DNA from: Rhodoluna sp.
Lineage (GTDB): Bacteria > Actinomycetota > Actinomycetes > Actinomycetales > Microbacteriaceae
DNA: 64,000 bases
NCBI RefSeq assembly: GCF_024639375.1
Contig: NZ_JAHEIM010000001.1
Coordinates: 1-64,000 of the forward strand
Reading direction: 5' to 3'
Positions 15,526 to 20,598 of the stretch are shown here, one piece after another; the stretch's first letter is position 1, and each line of letters opens with the position of its first letter. Under the pieces are notes generated by a model. The model worked only from the letters and a program-made list of their open reading frames with translations. It was not told the origin of the DNA and did no database searches. A program made the translations under genes and the position numbers.

Positions 15526-16290
15526 CTAAAGCTTTTCAAAACCAGCCCTGTTTGCTGCTCGATTGAGAGTGGCCAGCAGGGCTGGTGCCGTTACCAAGAT
15601 CAAAACACTCGTAGTGATTGCTCGACCAAGATCCCAAATCAACCCACCGGTGAGTAGTTCGTAATTAATAAACCTCAGGATGTTCGCGCCCACACCTTCG
15701 CCGGCTGCGTATGAGACTGAGCTGCCGATGCCAGCCAAGAATGGCCAGTTCCACATCGTCATTAATCCGCCGTAAATAAAACTCGAAATTGTTGCGTAGC
15801 CAATCAATGCGGTGAGCAGCAACCAGCGACGTTTTGGTTTGGGAATGAAGCCGGCGCCAAGACCAATTAATCCGGCAGCCATCATTTGAAATGGCAACCA
15901 TGGGCCAACGCCACCACTGAGCAGTGCGCTCACGAGCAACGAAGTTGTGCCAAGCAAAAAGCCGAAGCCACTGCCAAAAACAGATGCGCTGATGATGATG
16001 ATGAAAAACGCCGTTTCAACACCGGCGGTGCCAGCGCCCAGCATTCGCACCACCGCGTTAAGCGCCGTGAGCACTCCCAAAATTGCCAGGTGCCTTGAGT
16101 CAATTCCGCCGGTGGCAAACTCCACCAATATCAAAACCAAAATCATCGGCATCAGCAAAATAAAAGCTGTTTGGGCAACCACGGCTTCGTTGGCTGCCGT
16201 CGAGCCAATAAACAAAGGCCAGGTAAACATCAAAAGCGAGGTTAGGCCAGCGGCACCAATGATCACTTTGGATAGTGCAGATGTTTTCAT
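15526..16290 (-). CDS. ECF transporter substrate-binding (S) component, probably for cobalamin
   Basis: The S component of an energy-coupling-factor importer binds the vitamin in the membrane. The 254-residue hydrophobic protein has about six membrane helices and the Gly/Ala-rich small-residue helices of S components (ISASVFGSGFGFLLG; GGVGPWLPFQMMAAGLIGLGAG in part). Start ATG 16290 overlaps the ATPase gene stop by 4 bp (ATGA). It is the last gene of a five-gene operon under a cobalamin riboswitch, so I infer it is CbrT-like and takes up cobalamin or a corrinoid. The substrate is inferred from context, not from residues. Confidence 0.85.
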   Translation of the reverse strand: MKTSALSKVIIGAAGLTSLLMFTWPLFIGSTAANEAVVAQTAFILLMPMILVLILVEFATGGIDSRHLAILGVLTALNAVVRMLGAGTAGVETAFFIIIISASVFGSGFGFLLGTTSLLVSALLSGGVGPWLPFQMMAAGLIGLGAGFIPKPKRRWLLLTALIGYATISSFIYGGLMTMWNWPFLAGIGSSVSYAAGEGVGANILRFINYELLTGGLIWDLGRAITTSVLILVTAPALLATLNRAANRAGFEKL

Positions 16291-17876
16291 GACAGCACCA
16301 CCTGAGCGACGGTGAGTAATCCTGGTTGATTGCAAATCTGAGCCACCTGGGTTGCCAGATCAGATTCTGCGCCGAGAGCAATTTCGGTTTTGCCGCTGAA
16401 CACCATTTGGCCTGCTGCCAACTGAATAACCTCATCGGCAACAAGTGCCACAAACTCAACATCGTGAGAGGCCAGCACAATGCATTTGCCCATCTGGCGA
16501 AGTTTGATTAACTGGTCGGCGAGCTGTTGCTTGGCCGCGTAATCGAGACCGCGAGTGGGTTCGTCGAGCAACAAAATCTTGGCGCCTTTAACTAGTTGAA
16601 TGGCCAGCACCAAAGCCAACTGTTGACCAGAAGAAAGATCACGCGGGTGAATTGCTGGGTCGATGCGGCCGGCAAGTTTTTCAAAAAGCGAAGCAGTGGT
16701 GGCGGGGGATACCTTGGCGAACCGGTCTGATTCTTCAAGCTCCAGGGCGAGTGAATTTAGAAACAGCAGGTCTGATGCTTTTTGCGGCACCATGGCCACC
16801 ACGGATAGGCGCTCATCCGTTGGCATTGATGCGCAGTCGCCCCAAGGTGTAATTGCGGTGCCGGTGGAGCGCAGCCCTGAACCCTGAAGGGCCCAAAGCA
16901 AGCTGGTTTTGCCTGAGCCGTTAGGCCCCATGATTGCAGTGATTTGCGCTTGGTTCACGGTTGCAGTGAATGGTTGCAGGGCAATCTCGTCTTGGTAGCG
17001 AACCGACAGCTCATTGATCTTGAGTGCCCAGTCCTTGGCTGCATTCTCGGCAATCGGAAGCCGCGGTCTAATTTCAAAAAGACGCTCACCGATTCCATTG
17101 CGAGCTTCGGCGGCAGTAGTTGCCAGTGGCAGCAGTTCAAGTTTTTGACTCAACTCAATTACCGGAGGAACCATTCGGTAGTCGTTGAATTGTTCGCGGG
17201 CTGCGCCCTTAGTTACCGAGCCATCGCCGTGCACCACAATTACTGAGTCAACTTGCTCAACAACGCGCTCGATGCGGTGTTCAGCTAACAACACGGTGAT
17301 GCCCAGTTCACTCGAGAGTCGCTTGAGTGTTTTCACAATTTCTAACGCAGCCTGCGGGTCAAGTGCCGAGGTTGGCTCATCAAGCAACAAAACTTTTTGT
17401 CCTGCGGCGAGTGCTGCAGCTATTGCAACACGTTGTTGTTGGCCCCCGGATAAAAATCCGAGTGGTTGGTGCAGAAGTTTCTCGATGCCCAGTTGAGCAG
17501 CAATCTGCTCAATGCGAACTCGCATCTCGGCAGGTGCAACTCCAAGTTGCTCAAGCCCGTAGGCAAGTTCATCAATCACAGTGTCAGCAACGAATGCCGA
17601 CTCGGGCTGTTGATTTACAAATCCGATTTTGTCGGAGAGCTCATGTGGCAACTTGCTGGCAATCTCAATTTCATCCAGCTTGATGCTGCCCTTGAATTTG
17701 CCACCGGTGAAGTGTGGAGCTAATCCGTTGATGACCTTGAGCAAAGTTGACTTTCCTGAGCCAGTAGGCCCGCAAACCAAAACAAATTCACCTGATTCAA
17801 TTTGCAGGTTTACACGATTTAGGTTTGGCGAATCGCTGGCCTTATAACTAAAAGAAACATCCGCGATTTTTATCAA
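16287..17876 (-). CDS. ECF transporter ATPase, two fused ABC domains
   Basis: This is the energising subunit of the ECF transporter, with EcfA1-like and EcfA2-like halves in one chain (about 529 residues). Domain 1 has Walker A GPTGSGKST, signature LSGGQQQR and Walker B LLLDEPTSALDP. Domain 2 has GPNGSGKTS, a modified signature LSSGQQLAL and LLLDEPTRGLDY. TTG 17876 is taken as the start because it overlaps the EcfT stop by 4 bp (TTGA) and gives MIKIADVSFSY, the usual ABC N-terminus; TTG 17888 and GTG 17885 are alternatives. Fused ECF ATPases are common in actinobacteria. Confidence 0.93.
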   Translation of the reverse strand: MIKIADVSFSYKASDSPNLNRVNLQIESGEFVLVCGPTGSGKSTLLKVINGLAPHFTGGKFKGSIKLDEIEIASKLPHELSDKIGFVNQQPESAFVADTVIDELAYGLEQLGVAPAEMRVRIEQIAAQLGIEKLLHQPLGFLSGGQQQRVAIAAALAAGQKVLLLDEPTSALDPQAALEIVKTLKRLSSELGITVLLAEHRIERVVEQVDSVIVVHGDGSVTKGAAREQFNDYRMVPPVIELSQKLELLPLATTAAEARNGIGERLFEIRPRLPIAENAAKDWALKINELSVRYQDEIALQPFTATVNQAQITAIMGPNGSGKTSLLWALQGSGLRSTGTAITPWGDCASMPTDERLSVVAMVPQKASDLLFLNSLALELEESDRFAKVSPATTASLFEKLAGRIDPAIHPRDLSSGQQLALVLAIQLVKGAKILLLDEPTRGLDYAAKQQLADQLIKLRQMGKCIVLASHDVEFVALVADEVIQLAAGQMVFSGKTEIALGAESDLATQVAQICNQPGLLTVAQVVLS

Positions 17877-18832
17877 GGCAACCACCAATGCATGATTGCG
17901 CCAAAAATTGCCACTCCGCCGAATGCCATCACGGCAAAGTCCTGTGACTGCCAGTTGGCTTTGATCAATCGGGTTCGGTTGCTCTTGCGTGAGGTGATGC
18001 GCACGGCGATTGCGGCAAAGGCTACGGCCAACAAACCCAGGGCCAGTGCCAAGAGTTGCAACTGGCCATTGACTAAAAACAGGTAAATCGCCATTGAGGT
18101 TGCTAGCAGCGACCCAAGGCTCATCAGGCGAGCTAGTGTTTGCTCAAACCGCGACATGGTTCCGCGTCTGCCAAATCCTCGCGCATCCATGCTGGCGGCC
18201 AATGCAAGTGAATGGTCAATGGTGTCTTCAAGCACTGGAATAACCGTGCCGGCCAAGGCACCAAGGCCTTTGCTGCGACCGCGCAAAGACCTGGCTCGGC
18301 GCACTCGTTGCAAACTCTCGATTAACTGTGGCGCTAGGTTGATGGCCACCGAAATGGCACTTGCGATTTCATAAAGAGCAGCCGGCGTTGATTTTAAAAG
18401 TTTGCGAGGGTTAGCCAGAGTGTTGGCAAGACCAATGCTCAAAATGATTGCCGAAAGTCTCAGGCCATCTGCGAATGCTGCACCAAGTGAAGCGGCAGAA
18501 ACGTTGCCGAGCATTGAAATTGAACCACCGAGACCGAGATTGATTTCAAGGGCAGGCAGCTGCAGCAAGGTGTCGTCAGCAGGTGCCGAGTAATTAAAAA
18601 CAATTCGAAAGGCAACGCGGGTTAGCAAGATGAAAGCGGAGAGGCCCAAATAAAACTTCAGCGATTGTGACCAAGGAGCTGGTTCGCGCGCAATCAGAAT
18701 AACTGCGACACAAAATGCGATTGTGCTGATCAAGATAAGTGGGTTGGATGTCATGCCGCTAGCGAATGCAAGACAAATGCCCAGCACCCACCAGGTTGCC
18801 GGCTCAAAGTTAGATGCCTTAAGCGCAGCCAC
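17873..18832 (-). CDS. ecfT: ECF transporter transmembrane coupling protein EcfT
   Basis: EcfT couples ATP hydrolysis to toppling of the S component. The 319-residue product has several membrane helices and two cytoplasmic Ala-Arg motifs of EcfT coupling helices (RRARSLRGR and SMDARGFGR). A C-terminal pair of membrane segments is present. GTG 18832 is chosen because earlier residues would lie inside the upstream gene and the next ATG would remove part of the first helix; it gives a 14-bp overlap with the lipoprotein gene. Position between the binding proteins and the ATPase fits one operon. Confidence 0.88.
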   Translation of the reverse strand: MAALKASNFEPATWWVLGICLAFASGMTSNPLILISTIAFCVAVILIAREPAPWSQSLKFYLGLSAFILLTRVAFRIVFNYSAPADDTLLQLPALEINLGLGGSISMLGNVSAASLGAAFADGLRLSAIILSIGLANTLANPRKLLKSTPAALYEIASAISVAINLAPQLIESLQRVRRARSLRGRSKGLGALAGTVIPVLEDTIDHSLALAASMDARGFGRRGTMSRFEQTLARLMSLGSLLATSMAIYLFLVNGQLQLLALALGLLAVAFAAIAVRITSRKSNRTRLIKANWQSQDFAVMAFGGVAIFGAIMHWWLP

Positions 18833-19355
18833 GAGTCTTCGGCTCAAATCTTGGCAGCACGTCGTTTGAGCTTTGGTTAGGTGCAACCCACACCCATGCT
18901 TCGTAGCCACCGCAAACCACCGAGTGGCCGGCTGCACCAATTGGGCTTAAGAGCCATCCGGGGCCTAGGTTTGGGTTAGTCACAAAATAGGCCCAGTTGC
19001 CCTCGGCGTAGGTTGGCGTATCTTGGCAGTCTTGTTCGGCAACGCTTGGCCAACCTTCGATGCGACAGACGAACGCACTTGGGTTATCGCCAGTGCCTTC
19101 AACCTTTAAGTCGGCCGCTTCAAATAATTGCCAGCTCTTTGCAGTTGCGTCAACCGCAACATCGTTGCGAACCATGACTTCGCGATTCGAATCTTTGCCA
19201 AAGTCAATCACCAGAGTGACGTGGCTCTCGCTGGAAGAGTTGTAAACCTTGCTGGGCGTTTGCGCGGGTTCGCCTGCAGAAAGCGTGCAGCCACTTAAGC
19301 CAATTGCCGAAATGGCAATCAGCGCAACGGCAGCTTTCTGCAGGCGATTACGCAT
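18819..19355 (-). CDS. DUF4430-like lipoprotein, transcobalamin beta-domain-like
   Basis: The 178-residue protein has a signal peptide with lipobox LSGC (Cys23), so it should be anchored on the outer face of the membrane. The mature part resembles DUF4430, the small beta domain found at the C-terminus of transcobalamin and intrinsic factor: VTLVIDFG strand, FVCRIEGWPSV, NWAYFVTN, and a closing CGGYEAWVWV. Its ATG overlaps the stop of the alpha-toroid gene by one base (TAATG). I infer it forms the second half of a split B12-binding protein and docks cargo on the ECF transporter. The family call is by eye and deserves a profile search. Confidence 0.75.
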   Translation of the reverse strand: MRNRLQKAAVALIAISAIGLSGCTLSAGEPAQTPSKVYNSSSESHVTLVIDFGKDSNREVMVRNDVAVDATAKSWQLFEAADLKVEGTGDNPSAFVCRIEGWPSVAEQDCQDTPTYAEGNWAYFVTNPNLGPGWLLSPIGAAGHSVVCGGYEAWVWVAPNQSSNDVLPRFEPKTRGCA

Positions 19356-20335
19356 TAGTTTTTCTTGATCAGATCTAGGTAGCTCAAACCAATCAGTGGC
19401 ACATAGCCCTGAGAGGTTGAGTAAACATCACCTAGGCCAGCTGACCATGAGGTTTTGAAACCACCGGTTGGCGCAAGCTTTGACTGCAGCCAAGCCGAGT
19501 AAGCGGTGATTTTCGCTCCAGCTGCCTTTAGGCCCATCGCCGCATAGGCAGTTGAGTTGATCGATGCTTCACCGTAGGCATCCCAGTGATTGTTTGCAAC
19601 ATCGGTTGAACGCAGGTAGGCCACAGCAGTCTTGGTTGCGGCTAGACGAAGAGCATCTTGGTCTTTGCTGCCGAAGGTCTTGTAGAGCGAAATAGCCTGC
19701 AGGGCCAAGCCGGTTGCATCTGCAGAGCTGTCAGTGCCACCAGAGCCAAATCCACCATCAGCATGTTGTTGCTTCAGCATCTGCAAAACAACTTTGTTGG
19801 CCAATGACTTTTCGTCGTAGCTGTTCAAGCCGAGCGATGCCCATGCGTAATCGATTGATCCAGCCGCAACTCCGGTGATCTCACCGGTGGTCGCGTTGGT
19901 AACTGCCTTGAGTTTCTTGAAAACCATTGCGCGAACTGCGTTGTTTGGCACATCAAGTGCTTCGCTAGCGAACAGGAACAAACCTGCGCGACCAACTTTA
20001 AGAGTGCCATCGGCGTTGGTTAGAAAACCAGGAGCCGCTTTGTTTCCAATTGCATTCAGGCTGCTGGCCAAAACATTTTGAACCGCAGGTAGCTGTTTGG
20101 TAAGTGAGCGACCGCCAGCTTTTAGCTGAATCATCGACTCGAGGGTTACGCCCCACTCGGTTTTTCCATAAAGATCTACCTTCTTGCCGTCGGTGCCAAA
20201 TGCACCAGCCAAGAAAGTAACTGTCTCAGGGAATTTAGTTTCCGCTGCTTGCGCTGCAAGGGGAATTGATAGTGCCAGTGTTGTGATTGCTGTGATTGCC
20301 GCTAATTTGCGCAACCCAGATTTAGCTTCGAACAT
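19355..20335 (-). CDS. Secreted alpha-toroid protein, transcobalamin/intrinsic-factor-like
   Basis: This 326-residue protein has a signal peptide (about residues 1-30, cleavage near AQA) and no lipobox. The mature part shows repeated helical units of the terpenoid-cyclase/prenyltransferase alpha-alpha toroid type, clearest at QHADGGFGSGGTDSSADATG and LALQAISLYKTF, and again at STAYAAMGLKAAG. This fold forms the large domain of human intrinsic factor and transcobalamin. It is the first gene after a cobalamin riboswitch and overlaps the DUF4430 lipoprotein gene. The inferred role is binding cobalamin outside the cell. Enzymatic cyclase activity is unlikely: the DXDD and CaaX-type catalytic motifs are not visible. 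Confidence 0.8.
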   Translation of the reverse strand: MFEAKSGLRKLAAITAITTLALSIPLAAQAAETKFPETVTFLAGAFGTDGKKVDLYGKTEWGVTLESMIQLKAGGRSLTKQLPAVQNVLASSLNAIGNKAAPGFLTNADGTLKVGRAGLFLFASEALDVPNNAVRAMVFKKLKAVTNATTGEITGVAAGSIDYAWASLGLNSYDEKSLANKVVLQMLKQQHADGGFGSGGTDSSADATGLALQAISLYKTFGSKDQDALRLAATKTAVAYLRSTDVANNHWDAYGEASINSTAYAAMGLKAAGAKITAYSAWLQSKLAPTGGFKTSWSAGLGDVYSTSQGYVPLIGLSYLDLIKKN

Positions 20336-20340
20336 TCGAA

Positions 20341-20380
20341 ACCTTTCGCTTCATGCGATCTGAGTGCGAAGGCGAAAGGT
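20341..20380 (-). promoter_or_regulatory. RBS-sequestering hairpin of the B12 leader
   Basis: On the minus strand ACCTTTCGC (20380-20372) pairs perfectly with GCGAAAGGT (20349-20341), 9 bp. The 3' arm contains the Shine-Dalgarno (GAAAGG) that ends 5 nt before ATG 20335. This is the expected expression platform of a translational cobalamin riboswitch. A second stem (GACTCC with GGAGTC, 20393-20429) lies between it and the aptamer, and no U-tract follows. Confidence 0.75.
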
Positions 20381-20440
20381 TTGACACCATTCGACTCCGA
20401 CCGTAGACCTCGACGGTAAATATGGAGTCAATTGTTTTTT

Positions 20441-20568
20441 GCAGGCATTCCGACTGTTGAAGCGAACTTCAAATCACGGTTGCGGGTCAGCGCCAGATTC
20501 TCACTGGCTTCCCCTGCTCAAAACAAAAGCTGTTGCCCATGAGGGCAACTCGATAAACATAGCAGGCA
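20441..20568 (-). ncRNA. Cobalamin riboswitch
   Basis: The minus strand carries the cobalamin aptamer signature: GAAGCCAGTGAGAATCTGGC followed by GCTGACCCGCAACCGT, and near the 3' side AGTCGGAATGCCTGC. These match the B12-box consensus almost base for base. It lies upstream of the alpha-toroid, DUF4430, ecfT, ECF ATPase and S-component genes, and predicts that the operon is repressed when adenosyl- or methylcobalamin is plentiful. A promoter just upstream would start transcription at the aptamer 5' end. Confidence 0.95.
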
Positions 20569-20569
20569 A

Positions 20570-20598
20570 AAGTTATGGCAAATGAAGCGACTTGCCAA
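20570..20598 (-). promoter_or_regulatory. Promoter of the B12 operon
   Basis: On the minus strand TTGGCA (20598-20593) and TAACTT (20575-20570) are spaced by 17 bp. Transcription would start near 20563-20566, at the first bases of the riboswitch. The promoter overlaps the 3' end of the upstream CPBP gene, so the operon can be transcribed independently of it. Confidence 0.6.

Follow-up and report, generated by a model that had tools for sequence, protein, structure and literature searches.

How could an actinobacterium with a small genome capture vitamin B12 from its surroundings? The question is raised by an operon in a stretch of DNA from Rhodoluna sp. (contig NZ_JAHEIM010000001.1, positions 1 to 64,000), which was analysed at its full length of 64,000 nucleotides and is called the window below. 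Within positions 15,526 to 20,598, a cobalamin riboswitch is followed on the minus strand by five overlapping genes for a secreted toroid protein, a lipoprotein (the β-protein) and the parts of an energy-coupling factor (ECF) transporter. We consider it likely that the operon serves the scavenging of B12 (corrinoid), in which the two extracellular proteins would form a split transcobalamin-like pair that binds the corrinoid and hands it over to a dedicated ECF importer.

Folds of the two extracellular proteins

The β-protein (18819..19355, minus strand) is a lipoprotein of 178 amino acids from an unnamed family, with a lipobox LSGC at residues 20–23, and is predicted to adopt the β-grasp fold of the transcobalamin β-domain. 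Nothing was found in the PDB with its single sequence (E up to 10) or with the family profile, and neither this protein nor the toroid protein on its own scores above any Pfam cut-off. The family alignment takes in the window and 23 of 26 loci (the near-copy L051 and the incomplete L054 and L055 were left out), and four cysteines are invariant in all 24 members. The AlphaFold2 model, calculated from a 17-row alignment, has a predicted local distance difference test (pLDDT) score of 89 and a predicted template-modelling (pTM) score of 0.81 and displays short strands after a helix. In the transcobalamin clade the helix is followed by a β-hairpin insert, of which a hydrophobic residue stacks on the base of the corrinoid; the strands of the model may or may not correspond to it. 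Foldseek ranks 1–17 for this model are all transcobalamin, haptocorrin or PDB entry 3u7z, each with probability 1.00 and with E values from 7.5e-4 to 1e-2. The probability falls after rank 17, except for intrinsic factor at ranks 23 and 29. Entry 3u7z is a putative metal-binding protein of 97 residues, which we take to be a DUF4430 protein. By this fold comparison the β-protein is a probable member of the transcobalamin clade of the SLBB β-grasp domains.

The toroid protein (19355..20335, minus strand) is secreted and comprises 326 amino acids including its signal peptide. Alone it stays below the Pfam cut-off (Prenyltrans, E 0.017), and a single-sequence search of the PDB at E up to 10 gives nothing. 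An alignment of 25 of the 28 fetched loci plus the window (again leaving out the near-copy L051 and the incomplete L054 and L055) was used as a 26-row profile, and this profile matches squalene–hopene cyclase in the PDB with an E value of 2.5e-7. The AlphaFold2 model (17-row alignment) is mostly helical, with a pLDDT of 93 and a pTM of 0.92. Among its 19 Foldseek matches under 0.001 are transcobalamin (2v3n, 3.9e-4) and intrinsic factor (2pmv, 9e-4); haptocorrin (4kki) is matched at 5.9e-4 with a TM score of 0.63 by query and a root-mean-square deviation (rmsd) of 4.8. Family profile and fold together place the protein in the superfamily of terpenoid cyclases, thioester domains and cobalamin-binding proteins. 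As modelled, it is a real α/α toroid, of a kind that is not specific to transcobalamin. The original prediction had read the two extracellular proteins as a secreted α-toroid and as the equivalents of the α and β domains of transcobalamin. Both readings are upheld by the profile and the models, the fold match being specific for the β-protein and generic for the toroid.

The DxDD string, a motif of cyclases, is absent from all 26 toroids, and 24 of the 26 have no cysteine after residue 30; a cysteine and GEQ are motifs of thioester proteins. The lack of DxDD and, in most cases, of a later cysteine speaks against cyclase and thioester roles for the toroid, and both were dismissed on these motifs, although a GEQ string occurs in two of the 26.

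Two further features of the pair may be mentioned. His250, in an NHW.A.G loop, is invariant in the 26 toroids of the same-genus alignment, whereas the distant ones of L112 and L123 do not share it; it is a candidate cobalt ligand. Anchoring also differs within the genus: by pattern, a lipobox is found in nine of 26 same-genus toroids and in one of 24 β-proteins, which is that of the window.

The riboswitch and the leader

The aptamer of an adenosylcobalamin (AdoCbl) riboswitch, RF01482, is located at 20389..20539 on the minus strand. It is matched by cmscan over the full model with 50.5 bits (gathering score 50, E 2.6e-6), which makes it a member of that family, and the operons of relatives reach up to 61.1 bits. 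The only other gathering-level match in the window is transfer-messenger RNA. At the same site the general model RF00174 obtains 31.4 bits against a cut-off of 31.5, and this is the sole RF00174-type match found in the whole assembly.

Downstream of the aptamer, a hairpin is predicted at 20336..20384 (minus strand) as a candidate translational expression platform. Within it the likely ribosome-binding site, GAAAGG immediately 5' of the toroid start codon, is paired: positions 20372–20382 are paired with 20339–20349 in the minimum free energy and centroid folds alike. The whole leader has a z-score of -2.1, and four of 200 shuffled sequences are equally stable. The pairing of the ribosome-binding site after the aptamer suggests that the hairpin may control translation of the first gene, as far as the leader of the window goes.

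A cobalamin riboswitch at E <=0.001 is present in 17 of 23 genomes of the genus (own genome included), once in each, and all 17 are found at this operon. They lie just upstream of the toroid gene, except in G013 and G018, where it is the β-protein gene that follows. Some of those counted at this threshold are under the RF00174 cut-off, such as that of the window itself. At the gathering score, a cobalamin riboswitch is found in 21 of the 28 fetched same-genus loci. In five loci (L043, L045, L046, L050 and L051) a glycine riboswitch sits beside it on the opposite strand.

The ECF transporter genes

With the chosen starts, the five genes 3' of the riboswitch overlap by 1, 14, 4 and 4 bases, the first of these overlaps, between the toroid and β-protein genes, being the shared base of TAATG. 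The third gene (17873..18832, minus strand; GTG start at 18832) overlaps the β-protein gene by 14 bases and encodes EcfT, a transmembrane coupling subunit of 319 amino acids that scores 37.3 bits with Pfam CbiQ (cut-off 25). It is followed by a fused double ECF ATPase, EcfA-EcfA' (16287..17876, minus strand), of 529 amino acids from a TTG at 17876, with two ABC_tran stretches (E 6.3e-49). TIGR04521 and TIGR04520 are the top models for this protein, yet remain below cut-off, and an alternative GTG start at 17885 would make the overlap with the EcfT gene 13 bases instead of 4. The last gene (15526..16290, minus strand; ATG at 16290) overlaps the ATPase gene by 4 bases and encodes the putative S component, the substrate-binding membrane subunit, of 254 amino acids. 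Its assignment is based on position and on TIGR04518, a folate-family ECF S model, which it matches with 22.4 bits (E 8.4e-5) against a cut-off of 60. A single-sequence search of the PDB with it at E up to 10 gives nothing. In the 26 rows of its family a GPW motif is invariant, and identity to the window protein is 33–69%. A further alignment consists of 25 hand-picked loci plus the window.

EcfT, the two ATPase units and the putative S component together make up an ECF transporter. The riboswitch ahead of five minus-strand genes with overlaps of 1–14 bases, the EcfT and the fused double ATPase are thus all found as originally proposed; for the S component the position and the sub-threshold match agree with the proposal, and the model cut-off is not reached.

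Conservation in the genus

In a single-sequence search the toroid protein was found in 29 of 59 related genomes (own genome included), all of them in the genus. The gene order recurs among same-genus genomes at 25–69% protein identity, which is more than chance. The five-gene order is indeed found in related genomes: all five genes stand in order in 19 of the 28 same-genus loci (in L055 in pieces). A further seven are cut by contig ends and agree as far as they can be read (the toroid of L054 is shortened), and two (L034 and L057) have a toroid without partner genes. Sixteen relatives are metagenome-assembled genomes labelled Rhodoluna, Microbacteriaceae, Micrococcales or Actinomycetota, and in all 16 the β-protein gene comes after the toroid gene.

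The lone toroid genes (L034:4928-6097 and L057:3133-4158) are intact, with neither β-protein nor ECF genes downstream and no gathering-level riboswitch. Some neighbouring genes in L034 match those of the window, and the two cases represent either real loss or an assembly fault. In two other loci of the genus, L118 and L119 (genomes G013 and G018), the riboswitch directly precedes the β-protein gene, EcfT and both ATPases form one frame, and no toroid was found.

Distribution in the Actinomycetes

The profile of the β-protein family matches 146 of 394 Actinomycetes genomes, from 68 of 138 genera, many of them partially (E 0.001 per genome). From these 146 we hand-picked 20 loci in other genera so as to cover a spread of families. 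In 18 of them (not in L169 and L183) the β-protein gene has ECF genes next to it on its own strand, a fraction that is not drawn from a random sample. A toroid is detected by profile in 12 (weakly in L173), the profile having missed the toroid of L171, which is visible by eye, and a cobalamin-clan riboswitch at the gathering score is found upstream in 15. Outside the 28-locus set, 14 further loci were fetched, two of which (L118 and L119) belong to the genus; here the β-protein gene is beside ECF genes in 12. L112 has toroid, β-protein, EcfT, EcfAA and S component all together. The order in L123 and L124 is β-protein, EcfT, EcfAA, S component, toroid and then a true PF14478 protein. L120 and L125 have PF14478 and none of the genes of the operon. 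In L114 and L115 a MetH gene adjoins the β-protein gene and a single EcfT-EcfA-EcfA-S frame.

No toroid is found by profile, with the β-protein and ECF genes kept together, in L113–L119, L121, L122, L168, L170 and L185–L187. Judged by sequence, the β-protein accompanies this ECF family more constantly than the toroid, whose presence varies, to the extent that the profile can tell.

In four loci (L114:8729-11581, L115:5034-8060, L185 and L187) EcfT, two ATPases and the S component form one continuous frame; L186 differs in having the S component in another frame. In all five a β-protein gene stands in front, no toroid or riboswitch was found, and the S components form one clade. L185–L187 come from the window's own family, so that the genus seems to carry a version unlike that of its kin. 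The toroid frame of L123 ends in an LPLTG-like stretch and a hydrophobic tail.

Circular permutation of the β-domain

In seven distant loci (L116, L117, L121, L168, L170, L171 and L173) the halves of the β-domain are swapped, so that the second precedes the first, the second segments being individually weak (E 0.09 to 5e-5). L122 shows the same permuted order, and on inspection by eye so does L172. When these nine proteins are combined into a profile, it scores 53.3 over 40 columns against the single β-domain. Against two copies of the domain in tandem it scores 100.5 over 98 columns across the junction (probability 98.6, E 1.4e-15), and three controls with shuffled columns stayed at a probability of <=0.1. 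The permuted genes sit in the same operon setting. Of the match rows listed for the 146 genomes, 60 are confined to the end of the profile, starting at position 108 or beyond, as is typical of the permuted proteins; seven of the 60 were inspected as permuted. In a tree of S components, from which 14 of the 16 loci L062–L077 (duplicates) and rows under 190 amino acids were left out, the nine permuted loci fall within one 12-row region together with three non-permuted ones. On these sequences a single origin of the permutation is neither shown nor excluded. We dropped the idea that the permutation relocates the membrane anchor to the opposite terminus of the protein; hydrophobic C-terminal flanks occur in five of the nine permuted proteins and in many non-permuted distant ones. 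Circular permutation is known in another β-grasp domain, the E1 UFD (PMC1949818; for this and the other papers cited, our statements refer to the accessible part of the text). Among the literature matches listed, no report of permutation in transcobalamin-like domains was found.

Need for B12

The genome of the organism contains a B12-binding domain in a MetH-sized frame of 1180 amino acids and a class II ribonucleotide reductase, NrdJ (595.8 bits, cut-off 399.95). Neither CbiC nor the N-terminal domain of MetE was found in this genome, which is 93.85% complete, so that the absences are no proof. The organism apparently cannot make vitamin B12. When an alternative importer of the BtuCD kind was sought, a single match to FecCD (the BtuC family) came up, which scores 34.6 bits (cut-off 26.5) in a frame of 280 amino acids. 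Since complete FecCD members of other families reach about 200–314 bits, this weak match is probably not a BtuC. Regulation and need tie in B12 as the best-supported substrate. Rhodoluna is described as a streamlined freshwater genus that has been brought into culture (PMC12381374), and the habitat of the window organism may likewise be fresh water.

Proposed mechanism and alternatives

At low intracellular adenosylcobalamin, the riboswitch would leave the operon on. To judge from their signals, the toroid would be secreted and the β-protein held on the outer face of the membrane by its lipid anchor. As two separate transcobalamin-like α and β halves of predicted fold, they would pair and clamp a corrinoid. 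The membrane-held β-protein would then hand it to the dedicated S component, which the EcfT/EcfAA motor would move through the membrane, by analogy with ECF transporters such as ECF-CbrT. Cobinamide is a possible co-substrate. The core partner is probably the β-protein, with the toroid as an accessory that raises affinity, because relatives without a detected toroid keep the β-protein beside the ECF genes.

Several results weigh against this interpretation. For the toroid, Foldseek puts drimenyl diphosphate synthases first (E 6e-6, rmsd of about 7.5), and glycosidase-like toroids and complement thioester domains are also resembled. Pfam Cobalamin_bind (PF01122) is matched weakly by two of the 26 toroids (best E 0.0071) and not by that of the window (E up to 0.1). 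Just two fold matches of the β-protein are below E 0.001. The family profile of the S component does not significantly resemble any S component of solved structure (best E 0.57). The riboswitch of the window is barely above its cut-off, and of the 14 further loci only L118, L119, L121 and L124 have, close to the β-protein gene and on the strand of the operon, a riboswitch that reaches the gathering score. Within the genus, operon and B12 enzymes, compared by eye, are not cleanly associated: G009 (91% complete) and G015 (81%) have a MetH-type domain and no operon was found in them, and the incomplete G002, G011, G018 and G019 have operon genes but neither MetH nor NrdJ above cut-off.

The family assignment of the β-protein is a further point of this kind. 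PF14478 (DUF4430) is matched by none of the 24 family members, window included (E up to 0.1), and hhalign of the family to three PF14478 proteins, a small set, gave a probability of 4.4 and no match. PF14478 itself is rare in Actinomycetes (4 of 296 genomes). The β-protein had originally been described as a DUF4430-like lipoprotein; its lipobox and its resemblance at the level of the fold stand, and DUF4430 identity is rejected by sequence. Of the two profile assignments suggested at the outset, the toroid superfamily is thus recovered, with the family profile, and DUF4430 is not.

The alternative that survives best, which we nevertheless regard as unlikely, is that the ECF transporter imports B12 and there is no clamp. 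The β-protein alone would be the receptor or a lid of the S component, and the toroid would have some other surface role, for instance in cell-wall holding. Such an arrangement would fit the persistence of β-protein and ECF genes where the profile, which can miss toroids as in L171, detects none, and it would fit the generic nature of the resemblance between toroid and transcobalamin. It accounts less well for the toroid, whose gene directly follows the riboswitch in most of the genus and which is detected in 12 of the 20 chosen distant loci, and for the fact that α plus β is the defining composition of transcobalamin.

Whether the substrate is intact B12 can also be questioned, and cobinamide or another corrinoid precursor, heme or cobalt could be considered instead. 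EcfT is a relative of CbiQ, heme auxotrophy is reported for Rhodoluna (PMC12381374) and an ECF heme importer exists (PMC7299338). A different substrate nevertheless appears decidedly improbable: in all 17 genomes of the genus where a cobalamin riboswitch was found it is at this operon, the β-domain fold matches cobalamin carriers first, and the failure to find CbiC makes cobalt for de novo synthesis unlikely. That the toroid is an enzyme unrelated to B12, such as a small terpene cyclase, is hardly credible. Class II terpene cyclases do lead its fold and profile matches, but it has a signal peptide, a single toroid of 296 residues, no DxDD string in any of the 26 sequences and a fixed place in a cobalamin-riboswitch operon.

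Relation to known systems

Capture of B12 by a transcobalamin-like pair, which we favour, has a precedent in an earlier published prediction, to which the original prediction for the window made no reference. Burroughs et al. (2007) described bacterial transcobalamin-like SLBB proteins, often fused to a toroid and encoded with CbiO and CbiQ, and proposed them to be B12 scavengers in hosts that are usually short of key enzymes of B12 synthesis (PMC1796856). The window operon likewise has extracellular toroid and β-grasp proteins beside an ECF-type ATPase and a CbiQ-like protein. The systems of 2007, as far as the accessible part of that report goes, are mostly from low-GC Gram-positives and planctomycetes, less often euryarchaea, and toroid–SLBB fusion is common among them (PMC1796856). 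In contrast, the window operon encodes two proteins with a β family that is not PF14478 by sequence, and an S component as well as a riboswitch belong to it. Animal transcobalamin, haptocorrin and intrinsic factor share the folds of the α toroid and β domain with the modelled pair; unlike them, the window pair consists of separate polypeptides, with 9–16% identity in the listed structural alignments and B12 binding as a prediction only.

On the transporter side, ECF-CbrT of Lactobacillus delbrueckii is a proven importer of cobalamin and cobinamide with high affinity and, like the window system, of the ECF type (PMC5997447). Unlike the S component of the window operon, CbrT is one of several S components that use a common ECF module, and the accessible part of the account mentions no extracellular partner (PMC5997447). 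ECF modules behind cobalamin riboswitches were noted in acI actinobacteria by Kang et al. (2017), and there too, within what is accessible of the text, an extracellular toroid or β-protein is not mentioned, in contrast to the window operon (PMC5301498). Among the matches listed from the openly licensed literature, nothing comes closer to such a bacterial transcobalamin-like ECF operon. Apparently new are the division into two proteins, an unnamed β family that is kept where no toroid is found and circularly permuted relatives; the freshest parts are the wide tie of this β family to an apparent B12 ECF transporter and the circular permutation.

To our knowledge, ECF transporters are not otherwise known to employ a binding-protein partner outside the cell. 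We propose, tentatively and as something close to an open choice, that in much of the Actinomycetes a B12 ECF transporter uses a transcobalamin-β-like extracellular partner, which would dock B12 on the S component and be kept without the toroid, in normal and permuted forms. If the proposed scavenging is true, small freshwater actinobacteria would capture B12 with the same two folds as animals. It would also become possible to study how an ECF transporter cooperates with capture proteins outside the cell. The idea of 2007 that animal transcobalamin derives from bacterial scavenging proteins would then become testable in Rhodoluna, since the genus is in culture (PMC12381374).

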